Assembly (NCBI GenBank): GCA_022843945.1
Contig: JALHMR010000047.1
Location: 1-35,127, forward strand
Length of the DNA: 35,127 nt
Reading direction: 5' to 3'
Source: Rhodospirillaceae bacterium
Lineage (GTDB): Bacteria; Pseudomonadota; Alphaproteobacteria; CACIAM-22H2
Every line of letters starts with the position of its first letter. The stretch's first letter is position 1. The position numbers and the translations under genes were made by a program. This document shows, piece by piece, positions 29,322 through 34,511 of the stretch. The notes beneath the pieces are model-generated. The model had not been told where the DNA came from and searched no databases. It worked only from the letters and a program-made list of their open reading frames with translations.

Positions 29322-29621
29322 ATGATCCTGGAAATCGCCCAGCTCGACGTGAAGCCCGGCATGGAAGCGGAATTCGAAAAGGGCGTGGCCGAAGCCGCGC
29401 CGGTGTTCAAGCGCGCCAAGGGCTGCCGCGGCCTGTCGCTGCAGCGCTCGATCGAGAAGCCCGGCCGCTACCGGCTGTTCGTCGAGTGGGACACGCTGGA
29501 GAACCACACCGTCGACTTCCGCGGCTCCGAGGATTTCAAGGAATGGCGCCGGCTCGTCGGCCACTGCTTCCAGGAGCCGCCCTATGTCGAGCACACCAAG
29601 CCAGTGAACAAGTGGTTCTAG
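29322..29621 (+). CDS. Antibiotic biosynthesis monooxygenase (ABM) domain protein
   Basis: A 99-residue single-domain protein of the dimeric alpha-beta barrel type: 'MILEIAQLDVKPGMEAEFEK' (first strand and helix), 'GCRGLSLQRSIEKPGRYRLF', 'VEWDTLENHTVDFRGSEDFK' and 'EWRRLVGHCFQEPPYVEH'. This fold serves in quinol monooxygenases, heme-degrading enzymes and many proteins without known substrate. GGGAG lies 9 nt before the ATG. It stands alone, converging on the nikC end with 3 bp between stops. No substrate can be named. Confidence 0.88.
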   Translation: MILEIAQLDVKPGMEAEFEKGVAEAAPVFKRAKGCRGLSLQRSIEKPGRYRLFVEWDTLENHTVDFRGSEDFKEWRRLVGHCFQEPPYVEHTKPVNKWF

Positions 29622-29624
29622 CCC

Positions 29625-30452
29625 TCAAGCCTGCGACTGAGCGACCTCTTCCGAAGCGCCCGACAGGGCGTCGCCGAGCAGGTTGAGTGCTACCACCGTC
29701 GCGAAGATCGCCGTACCGGGATAGATCATCAGCGTCGGGTTGGTGCGAAAGTGCGTGCGCGCTTCGAACACCATCATTCCCCATTCCGGCGTCGGGGCCT
29801 GAACCCCGAGCCCGAGGAACGAGAAAGCGGAAAGCTGCAGCAGAATCCAGCCGGCATCGAGCGTCGTCACTACGACGACGACGGGGGCCACGTTCGGAAG
29901 CATATGCCGCAGCAGAACCGCGATGCTGCGCAGCGCCAGCAGGCGCGCGGCGGAAATGTATTCTTGCATTCCGACCGTCAAGGTAAGGGCCCTGACCGTG
30001 CGCGCGTGATGAGCCCAATGCACCGCGACGATGGCAATAACGGCGTTATCCAGCCCCGGCCCTAGAAAGCCGACGATAGCGAAGGCAAAGAGCAGCGTCG
30101 GAAAAGCCAGAACGAAGTCGACCGTTCGCATCAGCGCCTCGTCGATCCGGCCGCGCGCGTAGCCGGCGGTGGCTCCGATGACGAAGCCGAGAACAGCTGT
30201 CAGCGCGCCGACGAGCGCGGCCGCGCCAAGTGACGGCCTCGCACCCCAAAGGAGCCGCGAGAGGACGCAGCGGCCAAGATGATCGGCGCCCAGCGGATAC
30301 TTCGCACTCCTTCCGGCGAAGCGGTCGGCCAGCGACAGCTCCATTGGATCGTTTGGCGCCAGCCAGGGTGCAAACGCGGCGAGCAGGCACAGGCCGAGCA
30401 GGAAAGCCAGGCTGACCAGGCCGACCGGGCTGCGTACCAAGCGTTCAATCAT
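29625..30452 (-). CDS. nikC: ABC transporter permease, NikC/DppC type
   Basis: A 275-residue inner-membrane permease of the dipeptide/nickel group. The N-terminus 'SPVGLVSLAFLLGLCLLAAF' is the first membrane helix, followed by the subfamily block 'LAPNDPMELSLADRF' and 'YPLGADHLGRCVLSRLLWGA'. The EAA-type cytoplasmic loop contacting the ATPase is around 'EYISAARLLALRSIAVLLRH'. The ATG at 30452 overlaps the nikB stop (ATGA). The frame continues upstream to 31178 but that is antisense-phase sequence inside nikB. No ATPase gene (NikD/NikE) follows; the next gene is on the other strand, so ATPases must come from elsewhere. Confidence 0.93.
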   Translation of the reverse strand: MIERLVRSPVGLVSLAFLLGLCLLAAFAPWLAPNDPMELSLADRFAGRSAKYPLGADHLGRCVLSRLLWGARPSLGAAALVGALTAVLGFVIGATAGYARGRIDEALMRTVDFVLAFPTLLFAFAIVGFLGPGLDNAVIAIVAVHWAHHARTVRALTLTVGMQEYISAARLLALRSIAVLLRHMLPNVAPVVVVVTTLDAGWILLQLSAFSFLGLGVQAPTPEWGMMVFEARTHFRTNPTLMIYPGTAIFATVVALNLLGDALSGASEEVAQSQA

Positions 30453-31384
30453 GGGGCCGCCTGGGTCACGATGCGGGGATCGAGCGCCGCATGGACGATG
30501 TCGGCGATGAGATTCGTGGCGACGACGATGGCCGCAACGCAACAGACGTAGGCCTGAACCACCGGCAGGTCGCGCGTCAAGATGGCCGAGAGGAAGTAAC
30601 GGCCCATGCCGGGCCAAGCGAATACGGTCTCCACGACGACCGCGCCGCTCAGAAGGCCCCCGACGGCGACGCCCAGAGCGCTCCACAACGGCAGCCCGGC
30701 ATTGCGCAACACGTGCCGGCCGAACAGGTGGCGCCGCCGCAAGCCGCGCGCCCGGGCGAAACGCACGTAAGGCTGGCGAAGCTCGCCAACGACGCTGTTG
30801 CGCAGAAGGCGCGCGAATAGCGCCGTCTGGCCCGCGGCCAGGGTCACCGCCGGCAACACCAGGTGCGCCCACGATCCGCGCCCGGAAAGAGGCAGCAGGT
30901 CGAGCCAGACGGAGAAGCCGTACATCAGCAGATAACCGAGCCAGAACCCCGGCAGCGCCGTGACACCGATGGCCAGAAGTCGGCTTGCGAGGTCGAGGCT
31001 GCCCCCTACCCGCATCCCGGCAACCATGCCGACCGGGATGCTCACAGCCAGCGAGAGCGCCAAGGCTGCCGCCGCAAGCTCGACGGTCGCGGGCATCAAG
31101 CGGGCGAAATCCGCGCCGATCGGTTCCCCGGTGATGTAGGAGCGGCCGAATTCCAGGCGCAGCGCCGACACAAGCCATTCGCCGTAGCGTTCCAGCAGCG
31201 GCCGGTCGAGGCCGAACTGGGAGCGCAACGACGCGATGGTTTCAGGCGTCGGCTGCAAGCCGAGACCATGCAGGAGGCTGGATTCCAACCCGCCCGGTGC
31301 CAGACTAAGCAACAGGAAGCTGAGCGTCGAAGTCGCCCAGAGGATTAAGGGCGCCAGAATCAGCCGCCGGGTCACCTGTCGCAT
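30449..31384 (-). CDS. nikB: ABC transporter permease, NikB/DppB type
   Basis: A 311-residue inner-membrane permease. The N-terminus has the first helix 'LILAPLILWATSTLSFLLLS' and the family block 'LAPGG...LRSQFGLDRPLLERYGEWL'. 'ATVELAAAALALSLAVSIPV' starts the core helices. The loop 'VRFARARGLRRRHLFGRHVL' is the coupling segment, and the protein ends 'NLIADIVHAALDPRI', typical of the group. It begins 20 bp after nikA and overlaps nikC by 4 bp, so the three form one operon under the riboswitch at 33130-33295. Confidence 0.93.
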   Translation of the reverse strand: MRQVTRRLILAPLILWATSTLSFLLLSLAPGGLESSLLHGLGLQPTPETIASLRSQFGLDRPLLERYGEWLVSALRLEFGRSYITGEPIGADFARLMPATVELAAAALALSLAVSIPVGMVAGMRVGGSLDLASRLLAIGVTALPGFWLGYLLMYGFSVWLDLLPLSGRGSWAHLVLPAVTLAAGQTALFARLLRNSVVGELRQPYVRFARARGLRRRHLFGRHVLRNAGLPLWSALGVAVGGLLSGAVVVETVFAWPGMGRYFLSAILTRDLPVVQAYVCCVAAIVVATNLIADIVHAALDPRIVTQAAP

Positions 31385-31404
31385 GGGTGGCGTTCCCGGT
31401 GCCC

Positions 31405-33012
31405 TTACCTCCGTCGTATCCGTTCCAGCGGAATGACATACTGCTGCTCAGCGAAACCGAACCCGGTGAAGTCGCGCCGCAGGACGGCGAGATTCACCGC
31501 ATGGGAGATCGGCAGATGGATGGCCTGTTCGTGAAATGTCGTAAGCAGGATCCGATACATCTCCCGCTGCCGCTCCTCGCTGGTCGCCGCCATCGCCGAA
31601 GCGATCACCCGGTCTATGTCGGCCTTCATCGGCAAACCCGTTTGAGCGATGGCGCTCGGCTGGGTGGGAGAACGCATGGTGTTGATGAACGCGGCGGGCT
31701 CGTAGGGTGGTCCCCAGCTGTCGCCATACATAAGATCGAAATCCCCGGCCCGCTGCCGCCGCATGGTGGCAGCAGGATCCTCGCCATGCAGTCGCAGTTC
31801 GATCCCGACGGCGCGCAAATACGCCTGCAGGACCTCAGCCAGTCCTTTGGCGACGGTGTTCGGCGCCGCGAACGCAAGGGTCAACGCCAGCCTCTCGCCG
31901 CTGCGTGTGCGAATGCCCTGGCCGGGTGTGAGACGCCATCCGGCTTCCTCGAGCAGCGCGCGTGTCTTGCCGGGATCGTACGGCACCGGGGGCAGGCCCA
32001 CATCGGTGAACGGCACTCCCGGTGAAAACAGACCGTCGGCGCGCGGTTCCAGATCGAGCAGGAGACTCTTGACGATACTGTCCTTGTCGACGGCGCTCAG
32101 GATGGCCTGTCGTACCTTGATATCGGCCAACAACGGCCGGCTCGTATTCAGTTGAACGATGCGGGTGAAGAGCGGGCCCGATACGAACGTTTCCACGGAT
32201 CTGTTCTGGCGAAGGCGCACAAAGGCCTCCAGGCCGACAAGGCCGTCGCCGAAGAGAAGGTCGATATCGCCGCGCTCCAGAGCCAGCAGGCGTGTCTCGA
32301 CATCGGGCATGACCCGCACGACCACGCGCGAGAGTGTCGGCTTGGTGCCCCAATAGCGGTCGTTCCGCAAGAAAACGGCGTACTCGTCCTTTCGGTACTC
32401 GCTCATGATCCAGCGCCCGGTTCCGATGGGCGCCTTGATGCCATCGCGCGTGATTCCCGTTTCGCGGAATCCGCTGGGTGACAGGAAGCGCAAGGGCCGG
32501 ATCAGGCTCAGCTCCTGCAAGGAGCCTGAATAAGGCTGCTTGAGGGAGAAGCGCACCGTATGGCTGTCCACAGCGTCGACCTTGTCCATCTGGCGGATGA
32601 ACTCCATCCAGGCATGGCGTTCGCGGTTAGCCAGCACATGCTCGACGTTGAGCAGGACGGCCTTGGCGTCGAACGGCGTGCCGTCGGAGAAAACGACGTC
32701 GCGGCGCAGCACGAAGGTCAGCTCGCGGCCATCCTCGGACAGCGCCCAGCTCTCCGCGAGATGGGGCTCGATGCGACCGCCCGGCCCGTAATTGACCAGG
32801 CCCTCGTAGATCAGATCCTGCGCGAACATCTGGCTGGGCTGGTACATATGCGGATTGCTCGGACCCACATCGGCGTTCCAGGCCATACGCAACTCATGCC
32901 CGACGGCGGCCGTTTGGACGGCAAGGCACAGGCAGAACGCGAATACAGGTATCGAGAGGCAACGAGTCGGTATCCGCGCCACGGCGCGGAGCAACGAATG
33001 AAGGGACGACAT
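31405..33012 (-). CDS. nikA: NikA-like ABC transporter substrate-binding protein
   Basis: A 535-residue periplasmic binding protein of the SBP_bac_5 family. A signal peptide lies in the first 40 residues ('IPVFAFCLCLAVQTAAVGH'). The mature part follows E. coli NikA closely as I remember it: 'NADVGPSNPHMYQPSQMFAQ', 'LTFVLRRDVVFSDGTPFDAK', 'RERHAWMEFIRQMDKVDAV', 'GIKAPIGTGRWIMSEYRKDE', 'SWGPPYEPAAFINTMR' and 'HEQAIHLPISHAVNLAV'. NikA binds nickel, or nickel-histidine chelates. The upstream cobalamin riboswitch points instead to cobalt, or to a corrinoid precursor. The start ATG at 33012 has GAGG 6 nt upstream, inside the hairpin at 33020-33049. The true substrate is inferred, not shown. Confidence 0.93.
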   Translation of the reverse strand: MSSLHSLLRAVARIPTRCLSIPVFAFCLCLAVQTAAVGHELRMAWNADVGPSNPHMYQPSQMFAQDLIYEGLVNYGPGGRIEPHLAESWALSEDGRELTFVLRRDVVFSDGTPFDAKAVLLNVEHVLANRERHAWMEFIRQMDKVDAVDSHTVRFSLKQPYSGSLQELSLIRPLRFLSPSGFRETGITRDGIKAPIGTGRWIMSEYRKDEYAVFLRNDRYWGTKPTLSRVVVRVMPDVETRLLALERGDIDLLFGDGLVGLEAFVRLRQNRSVETFVSGPLFTRIVQLNTSRPLLADIKVRQAILSAVDKDSIVKSLLLDLEPRADGLFSPGVPFTDVGLPPVPYDPGKTRALLEEAGWRLTPGQGIRTRSGERLALTLAFAAPNTVAKGLAEVLQAYLRAVGIELRLHGEDPAATMRRQRAGDFDLMYGDSWGPPYEPAAFINTMRSPTQPSAIAQTGLPMKADIDRVIASAMAATSEERQREMYRILLTTFHEQAIHLPISHAVNLAVLRRDFTGFGFAEQQYVIPLERIRRR

Positions 33013-33019
33013 TAAAAGC

Positions 33020-33049
33020 CTCGCGGATCGACGTGTCCGTCACCGCGAG
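33020..33049 (-). promoter_or_regulatory. Shine-Dalgarno-sequestering hairpin of nikA
   Basis: On the minus strand CTCGCGG (33049-33043) pairs with CCGCGAG (33026-33020), a 7-bp stem with a 16-nt loop. The 3' arm includes the GAG of the ribosome-binding site GAGG (33022-33019). This is the usual expression platform of Gram-negative cobalamin riboswitches that act on translation. Confidence 0.7.
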
Positions 33050-33129
33050 CCACGGCCAGCGCAACGCCCTTTAAGCGCTACCTAGCCTCGCCGATACACC
33101 CCGACCAGCGATCTCGCGCGTGACACGAG

Positions 33130-33295
33130 CAATGGCAGGTCTCCTGACTTGCGGATCACCGCCAACGCCGGCCTTCCCAGTAACCCAGTGGCCTTTTCGA
33201 CGTCAGCTAACCGCTTACAGTTGCGGGGGCAGCCCCGGATTCTCACCGGGTTCCCGTTTAATCCCCGAAGGGAACCATCGCGGTCAGGCTGGTGC
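33130..33295 (-). promoter_or_regulatory. Cobalamin (B12) riboswitch
   Basis: The minus strand carries the conserved segments in order. GATGGTTCCC with GGGAACCCGGTGAGAATCCG comes first, then GGGGCTGCCCCCGCAACTGT followed by AAGCGG (the core), then GCCACTGGG with CTGGGAAGGC, and last the B12 box GTCAGGAGACCTGCC. All core elements of the adenosylcobalamin-class aptamer are present and unbroken. It lies about 120 nt upstream of the NikA-like gene in the same direction, so it should switch off the transporter when B12 is plentiful. TTGACA on the minus strand at 33314-33309 is a possible -35. Confidence 0.96.
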
Positions 33296-33405
33296 ACGAG
33301 AAGTCGATTGTCAACTTGATAAGTGGGTACGACGGAATGCTCGTCGCCCGAAGGATTGCGGCAAATTGCGCCGGCAGCCACCCGGCGCTAGCGTGCAGGC
33401 CGCGC

Positions 33406-34023
33406 ATGAGCCAGCCACCGCCCCCGCCCACCGATTCAGGCATTCCTGCTTCAGCCAGGACCGGGCCGCCGCGGCGCAAGCTGATCGACGGCTCGTTCCT
33501 GTTCATCGTCGGCTTCGCCGTGGCCAGCGCCGCCGGCTGCTGGTGGCTCAACGGGCCCGAGGTGTTCTTCGAGGCGCTGCGTGACGAAGGCGACCTGATG
33601 CTGCGCCTCGTGCCGGTGATCGCCGGCGCGGTGCTGCTCGCCGCCTTCGTGCAGGTGCTGGTGCCGACCGAGGTGGTGAAGCGCTGGCTCGGCGCTGAAT
33701 CCGGCTGGAAAGGGGTCGCCGTCGCCTCGGTGATCGGCGCCTTCGTGCCCGGCGGGCCGATGGCCTCCTTCCCGCTGATGATGGCGGTGATCGGCGCCGG
33801 CGCCCATGTCGCGGCCAGCGTCGCCTTCCTCACCTCGTGGTCGGTGCTGGCCATCCAGCGGCTGATCGTCTGGGAGATCCCGCTGATGGGCGGTGACTTC
33901 GCGCTGGTGCGCTTCCTCTCGTCGGTGCTGCTGCCGCCGCTGGCCGGCTGGGGAGCGGCCTGGCTCTACGCGCGCTGGCCGGAAGCCCCGGCGAAAGATT
34001 CAGGGGCGAAGGACCCGTCATGA
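33406..34023 (+). CDS. Half-size permease, ArsP_1/DUF318 type (first of a pair)
   Basis: A 205-residue membrane protein. After a proline-rich cytosolic N-terminus come about four to five membrane helices: 'FLFIVGFAVASAAGCWWL', 'LVPVIAGAVLLAAFVQVL' and a block 'WLGAESGWKGVAVASVIGAF' followed by 'VPGGPMASFPLMMAV'. Then come 'LTSWSVLAIQRLIVWEIPL' and 'LLPPLAGWGAAWLY'. The 'GAFVPxGP..SFPL' motif is that of predicted permeases of the ArsP_1/DUF318 family, which normally have two such halves in one chain. Here each half is a separate gene. I start at the ATG at 33406; a GTG at 33292 would run back into the riboswitch DNA. The stop overlaps the next start. Substrate unknown. Confidence 0.85.
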   Translation: MSQPPPPPTDSGIPASARTGPPRRKLIDGSFLFIVGFAVASAAGCWWLNGPEVFFEALRDEGDLMLRLVPVIAGAVLLAAFVQVLVPTEVVKRWLGAESGWKGVAVASVIGAFVPGGPMASFPLMMAVIGAGAHVAASVAFLTSWSVLAIQRLIVWEIPLMGGDFALVRFLSSVLLPPLAGWGAAWLYARWPEAPAKDSGAKDPS

Positions 34024-34511
34024 TCCTCGCCGTGGCGATCATCTGGCCGGCGGTGCTGATCTGCGCCTTCCTGCTGTGGCGCGGTCCGCGCGCGCGGGCC
34101 CAGCGCGCGCTCGATCTCGCGCGGCACAACGCCACGTTCATCGCCATGCGCGTGCCCTTTGCGCTCCTCGGGGCTGGTTTCGTCGCGACACTGCTGCCCG
34201 AGCGGCTGGTGGCGCAGTGGCTGGGCGGTGAATCGGGCTTCACCGGTATCCTCATCGCCTCCGTGGTCGGCGCCTTCGTGCCCTCGGGGCCGATCATCTC
34301 CTTCCCGCTGACCCTGGCACTGGCCAAGGCCGGGGTCGGCGTGCCGCAGCTCGTCGCCTTCCTTGCCGCCTGGTCGGTGCTTTCGGTCCACCGCCTGGTG
34401 ACCTGGGAACTGCCGCTGCTCGACACCCGTTTCAACCTTGTCCGTTACACGGTGTCGCTCGCCCTGCCGCCGCTTTCCGGCGTGCTGGCGGCGCTGCTGG
34501 TCGGGCTTTGA
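34020..34511 (+). CDS. Half-size permease, ArsP_1/DUF318 type (second of the pair)
   Basis: A 163-residue membrane protein starting inside the stop of its partner (ATGA). It repeats the partner's order of motifs: 'PERLVAQWLGGESGFTGILI', 'ASVVGAFVPSGPIISFPLTL', 'AAWSVLSVHRLVTWELPLL' and 'LALPPLSGVLAALLVGL'. The two proteins probably form a heterodimer equivalent to one full-length permease, with inverted or parallel halves undecided. No metal-binding cysteines characteristic of arsenic handling are visible, so arsenical transport should not be assumed. Context next to a B12-controlled metal importer makes metal or corrinoid transport worth considering. Confidence 0.85.
   Translation: MILAVAIIWPAVLICAFLLWRGPRARAQRALDLARHNATFIAMRVPFALLGAGFVATLLPERLVAQWLGGESGFTGILIASVVGAFVPSGPIISFPLTLALAKAGVGVPQLVAFLAAWSVLSVHRLVTWELPLLDTRFNLVRYTVSLALPPLSGVLAALLVGL

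Follow-up and report, generated by a model that had tools for sequence, protein, structure and literature searches.

The window, i.e., the whole stretch of 35,127 nucleotides analyzed here, comprised the entire contig C47 of an assembly that consisted of 82 contigs and was 96.7% complete. The 12 plasmid records at the top of the list for its glutamate synthase belonged to Sphingobium (11) and Qipengyuania (1), with identities of up to 69%, and the host is therefore regarded as an apparent alphaproteobacterium. A cobalamin riboswitch was found on its minus strand, followed after 104 nt by genes encoding a NikA-like solute-binding protein and NikB- and NikC-like permeases, in this order and without ATPase genes. 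The features of the locus were as follows:

33117–33294, minus strand: cobalamin riboswitch aptamer (RF00174), full-length match, 131.8 bits
33224–33229, minus strand: L5 loop CCCCCG, proposed kissing partner of L13, taken from the Rfam alignment
33088–33111, minus strand: P13–L13 hairpin with an 8-bp stem including a G-U pair; its loop, CGGGGUGU, is complementary to L5
33020–33049, minus strand: putative hairpin sequestering the ribosome-binding site (RBS); 33049–33043 with 33026–33020, inner pairs 33042–33038 with 33033–33029
33019–33022, minus strand: Shine–Dalgarno sequence GAGG, 6 nt 5' of the nikA ATG
31405–33012, minus strand: nikA-like gene, family-5 solute-binding protein of 535 aa (TIGR02294, 593.6 bits; PF00496; PDB NikA)
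30449–31384, minus strand: nikB-like gene, permease of 311 aa (top model TIGR02789, 339 bits; PF00528)
29625–30452, minus strand: nikC-like gene, permease of 275 aa (top model TIGR02790, 309.6 bits; PF00528)
29322–29621, plus strand: gene with an ABM domain (PF03992, 54.7 bits), convergent to nikABC, at the expected place of nikD

All three nikABC frames were full length, and the riboswitch upstream of them was intact. The GC3 values of the operon (29625–33012) were 77–83% compared with 86–94% in five neighboring genes; thus, nikABC may be a recent, horizontal arrival behind a resident switch. Two overlapping plus-strand genes divergent from nikABC (33397–34023 and 34020–34511) each covered a different section of the ArsP_1 permease model (positions 12–133 in the first gene and 189–266 in the second, the latter match being slightly below the cut-off) and apparently represent a split permease.

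Cobalamin riboswitches and the nikA leader

The Infernal search with Rfam matched RF00174 along the untruncated model (positions 1–189) with a score of 131.8 bits against a gathering score of 31.5 and an E-value of 3.6e-33, confirming the intact minus-strand aptamer reported in the first-pass annotation. The same annotation had placed the aptamer directly before a NikA-type importer, in agreement with the RF00174 match and the TIGR02294 score of the first gene, and about 120 nt from nikA; the order was right, and the measured distance from the aptamer end to the nikA ATG (33012–33010) was 104 nt.

Three cobalamin riboswitches were found in the assembly, preceding nikABC, cbtB–cbtA, and cobU/cobP–cobW–cobN; the one in the nikA leader had the highest score. 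CbtB (PF09489, 66 bits) and CbtA (PF09490, 178 bits) constitute a predicted cobalt transporter. The remaining riboswitch preceded a gene of the CobU/CobP type, followed by cobW and the first part of cobN, where the contig ended. Given cbtBA and cob genes as the partners of nikABC, the regulon therefore serves cobalt uptake and the synthesis of B12.

The nikA and cbtB leaders look alike; however, the evidence was insufficient to regard the former as a recent duplicate of the latter. The cbtB aptamer was 75.1% identical to that of nikA, while other aptamers reached up to 80.0%, and it was second by local score (134 vs. 145). Platform identity between the two leaders was 70.3%, the highest of 51 values, the next being 70.2, 69.9, and 69.5%. 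The platform local score of 32 exceeded the shuffle mean of 16.4, yet the maximum of 2000 shuffles was 34, and another leader scored 33.

The L13/L5 element couples cobalamin aptamers to their platforms. Judged by sequence, the L5–L13 kissing loop, described in PMC9600662, is predicted in the nikA leader as well, where the CGGGG of the L13 loop (33103–33096) could pair with the CCCCG of L5 (33229–33224). CCCCG was present in 49 of 52 aptamers, representing 49 fetched loci and the three of this genome, out of 63 matches listed. An L13-type hairpin within about 58 nt of the aptamer was found in 22 of these 52 leaders, compared with 3.5 expected, although the leaders are not independent because many of them come from related genomes. 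Shuffling of the window leader yielded a hairpin with a CGGGG loop in 399 of 2000 sequences at a stem of 5 bp and in 86 of 2000 at 7 bp.

The 7-bp hairpin over the RBS, proposed in the first-pass annotation, was exact: CTCGCGG (33049–33043) pairs with CCGCGAG (33026–33020) by seven Watson–Crick pairs, and five further pairs lie inside the loop. The position of GAGG 6 nt before the ATG (33022–33019) was likewise correct; the 3' arm covers three of its four bases. Against shuffled sequences, the hairpin was modest: its fold z-score was −0.68, dinucleotide shuffling of the upstream leader gave a stem of at least 7 bp over GAGG in 32 of 1000 sequences, and 19 of 300 shuffles reached the opening energy of the RBS, 7.2 kcal/mol vs. 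4.1 ± 1.9 kcal/mol in shuffles. By itself, the hairpin is modest evidence for control; the L5–L13 element is stronger. When the platform was folded alone, the closed hairpin (−53.3 kcal/mol) was favored over a hand-drawn open alternative (−48.2 kcal/mol), and this simple fold therefore leaves the ON state unexplained. A terminator consensus scan listed three sites, none of them inside the nikA leader; the leader hairpin is trailed by only four U, below the requirement of that scan, so that it could still act as a transcription terminator.

Binding protein, permeases and ATPase genes

The binding protein scored 593.6 bits with the NikA equivalog model TIGR02294, well above the cut-off of 393, and 470 bits with the best solved structure, 4oer ('NikA protein'). 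Its score with the CntA model NF047575 was 391 bits, below the cut-off of 800. SBP_bac_5 (PF00496) was the only family found, and the test for a BtuF-like protein was negative. Identity to proteobacterial NikAs was 41–47% by BLASTP (42% to NikA of E. coli). The description of the protein as closely resembling NikA thus holds with regard to the TIGR02294 cut-off and is overstated with regard to these identities and to the lack of NikD and NikE genes. In a 38-row tree, the protein fell inside the NikA/CntA clade (100/99, 19 rows) but did not belong to the proteobacterial NikA clade of 11 rows (100/99). Its basal position was weakly supported, with 84/77 in this tree and 84/87 in a 29-row tree.

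The residues of the NikA chelate pocket were taken from PMC11091072. Arg97, Trp100, Arg137, Trp398, and Tyr402 were retained in the window protein, and Tyr382 was replaced by Met at a position that is variable among the comparators. His416, which occupies the axial nickel position in NikA of E. coli (PMC11091072), was replaced by Gln. This histidine was present in 12 of 20 comparators, namely in all 12 aligned proteobacterial members of the NikA/CntA clade, and absent from the other eight, of which five were Bacillota rows including CntA, one was Fusobacterium, and two were distant Rhizobiaceae rows. Since these eight include Bacillota proteins annotated as NikA, the loss of His416, unusual among proteobacterial NikAs, is no proof of another metal. 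A pocket devoid of the axial ligand would fit a chelate that needs no ligand from the protein.

Both permeases scored below the cut-offs of their equivalog models (NikB, TIGR02789, 339 vs. 447 bits; NikC, TIGR02790, 309.6 vs. 358 bits). Neither nikD nor nikE, nor a remnant of them, was found in the window by tblastn with comparator NikD and NikE (E ≤ 1e-3). The NikD model had 142 matches in the assembly, the best 26 of which (at least 165 bits) formed 13 NikDE-like pairs in 12 regions, all of them with their own NikB- and NikC-like permeases. These best NikD-like matches sit with other permeases; NikBC would presumably borrow an ATPase. A second binding protein with two permeases and without ATPase genes was found in the same genome (contig C4, 178000–193000); the three cobalamin riboswitches lie off this contig. 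This set weakens the missing ATPase as a special mark of nikABC.

Related genomes and known systems

TIGR02294 was surveyed at E ≤ 1e-75, with the top few candidates per genome scored, in overlapping samples. A match was found in one of 385 genomes of the class sample (the genome of the window), in two of 398 of the phylum sample (the same genome and G736), and, in the class to which G736 belongs, in G736 alone out of 369. In 22 genomes of the same family, the best-scoring match to the window protein had 163 bits and 29% identity, and a search of genome contigs with the binding protein revealed two distant relatives only.

A different family-5 protein was found at seven of the 49 riboswitch loci from relatives. 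In six of them (G005, G009, G012, G016, G017, and G018; L157–L162), the riboswitch was followed by a DUF1636 gene, a family-5 binding protein, and two permeases; NikD-like matches were absent from the 6.5–12.2 kb downstream. The seventh locus (G019) ended at a contig end, and an eighth region fetched (G022) contained no such family-5 protein. A CobW-family GTPase gene was located within about 5 kb in five of the six DUF1636 loci, immediately downstream in three of them and upstream in divergent orientation in the other two; none was found in the G016 stretch examined. The DUF1636-linked binding proteins were 25–28% identical to that of the window and grouped in a clade of their own (100/100, 6 rows); Opp5A_nikA was the top NCBIfam model for the two proteins scored, with 251 and 224 bits against a cut-off of 600. 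From the layout in these six relatives, it follows that two different family-5 importers have come under the same type of control within a single family.

Cobalamin riboswitches of several relatives (L127, L139, L141, and L163) preceded a similar long open frame, which may encode a B12-independent ribonucleotide reductase. Riboswitch-led nikA operons on plasmids were considered and rejected: ten loci were scanned (eight plasmid nikA loci together with L004 and L027, leaving out L005, L036–L038, and L100–L107), and the riboswitch at the only one that had it, that of Methylobacterium radiotolerans, faced away from nikA. On plasmid pMRAD01 of Methylobacterium radiotolerans (L028, 5440–5648), a cobalamin riboswitch preceded a TonB receptor/ABC set that is divergent from a nikABCDE–nikR operon.

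The pairing of a cobalamin riboswitch with nikA is already known. In Clostridium tetani and Desulfitobacterium hafniense, NikABCDE was predicted to be preceded by a B12 riboswitch; PMC2667541 set these systems apart from nickel-specific NikAs and counted two cobalt NikABCDE systems in Clostridia. The cobalamin riboswitch of Sporomusa ovata nikA has served in reporter strains (PMC9600662). All three organisms thus share with the window a cobalamin riboswitch before a NikA-type importer, for which cobalt is predicted in the first two, a likeness drawn from published descriptions. The window differs from these Firmicute systems in its apparently alphaproteobacterial host, the hairpin covering the RBS, the lack of NikDE, and Gln416. 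With NikABCDE of E. coli, it shares the TIGR02294 family, pocket residues, and the A–B–C order; however, it lacks D and E, NikR, and His416, and the identity is 42%. Staphylococcal CntABCDF likewise belongs to the NikA/CntA clade and has no His416, whereas the window, in the frames scanned, had no cntKLM-type genes and no ATPases, and its binding protein was below the CntA cut-off. CbtJKL of Sinorhizobium meliloti is an ABC cobalt importer under a B12 riboswitch (PMC7689651), likewise in an alphaproteobacterium, but CbtJ is BtuF-like, unlike the family-5 protein of the window. CbtAB, also located behind a cobalamin riboswitch in the same genome, belongs to a different transporter family. No description of such a system without ATPase genes, or of one linked to DUF1636, was found in the literature searched, whose coverage mostly excluded subscription journals. 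The ATPase-free layout and the unusual pocket are the variant aspects here.

Proposed cargo and function

The NikR_C search, positive in five of 14 control genomes, gave no match in the assembly. NikR occurs in fewer than half of NikABCDE organisms according to PMC2667541, so its absence is not strictly defining. Urease was present in the genome, and a lack of nickel demand therefore failed as an argument against nickel. The genome also contained two cbtA genes and NicO-family genes at two places. The NicO family includes both importers and exporters.

The nikABC operon probably encodes a B12-repressed ABC importer of cobalt, which would be taken up as a small Co(II) chelate with a borrowed ATPase and would feed the aerobic B12 pathway. 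Histidine or another amino-acid metallophore would most likely serve as the chelator. At low levels of coenzyme B12, the leader would leave the nikA RBS open, and NikA, NikB, and NikC would be made. Binding of B12 to the aptamer would lead to the L5–L13 kissing loop; the hairpin 33049–33020 would then close over GAGG and translation would stop. The binding protein would hold the chelate in its NikA-like pocket without an axial histidine, NikBC would move the cargo across the membrane, and a NikDE/DppDF-type ATPase pair from another operon would power them.

The riboswitch with its L13 element, the cbtBA/cob regulon, the absence of NikR, Gln416, the parallel in the relatives, and the distinction drawn in PMC2667541 all argue for cobalt. 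Several points argue against it: urease makes nickel import useful; CbtAB, a second cbtA, and NicO are already present; neither NikB nor NikC reaches its Nik equivalog cut-off; and loss of His416 is common among the comparators. The preference of the platform alone for the closed hairpin speaks against the proposed mechanism, and the lower GC3 hints at a recent arrival.

That arrival is the starting point of the strongest alternative, in our view a rather unlikely one, according to which a transferred nikABC landed behind a resident cobalamin riboswitch and still imports Ni-histidine for urease. It would account for the equivalog score with TIGR02294, the urease, the GC3 of the operon below that of five neighboring genes, the lack of further TIGR02294 matches (E ≤ 1e-75) among the remaining 384 genomes of the class sample, and a best-scoring match of only 29% identity in the 22 genomes of the same family; Bacillota proteins annotated as NikA also lack His416. 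However, this histidine is retained in all 12 proteobacterial NikAs aligned from the NikA/CntA clade, NikR was not matched in the assembly, repression by B12 would presumably starve urease whenever B12 is plentiful, and six relatives carry a different family-5 importer under the same RNA class.

Still less probable is a broad metallophore importer of the staphylococcal CntABCDF kind, transporting cobalt, nickel, and zinc with an opine-type or other chelator and merely tuned by the riboswitch. The window protein does belong to the NikA/CntA clade (100/99, 19 rows), CntA shares the lack of His416, and NF047575 gave 391 bits; yet this is far from the cut-off of 800, no metallophore gene was found among the window frames scanned, and B12 would be an odd signal by which to control zinc uptake.

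The first-pass annotation had proposed cobalt or a corrinoid as the cargo. Co-regulation with cbtBA and cob genes and the absence of NikR agree with the former, while nickel keeps a share of the probability because the genome encodes urease and some Bacillota proteins annotated as NikA lack His416. Import of a corrinoid, cobinamide or B12 itself, is highly improbable: cobalamin riboswitches often control corrinoid uptake (PMC3766115), but the small-chelate residues Arg97, Trp100, Arg137, Trp398, and Tyr402 are kept, the binding protein is of family 5 (PF00496) and not of the BtuF type, and the operon contains no outer-membrane receptor gene. Equally hard to credit is an operon decaying or non-functional through the loss of its ATPase genes, as the absence of NikDE from the window, the own permeases of the 13 NikDE-like pairs found elsewhere, and the 96.7% completeness of the assembly might suggest, since the operon has three full-length frames and an intact riboswitch, six relatives in a separate lineage have the same ATPase-free layout, and the genome contains another ATPase-free set of a binding protein and permeases.

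Beyond the cobalt importer proposed for the window, a more tentative idea is that, within one bacterial family, cobalamin riboswitches took over ATPase-free family-5 sets at least twice, independently. Both sets could then import cobalt with an ATPase shared with peptide importers, and the one in the relatives could have DUF1636 and CobW-type GTPases as partners. Members of this protein family are labeled nickel importers by default, and automatic annotation could mislead here because the regulation, the absent axial histidine, and the parallel in the relatives point to cobalt. The ATPase-free layout in two separate lineages makes the sharing of motors among peptide and metal importers directly testable. 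For DUF1636, the loci of the relatives point to a possible function in cobalt/B12 supply.
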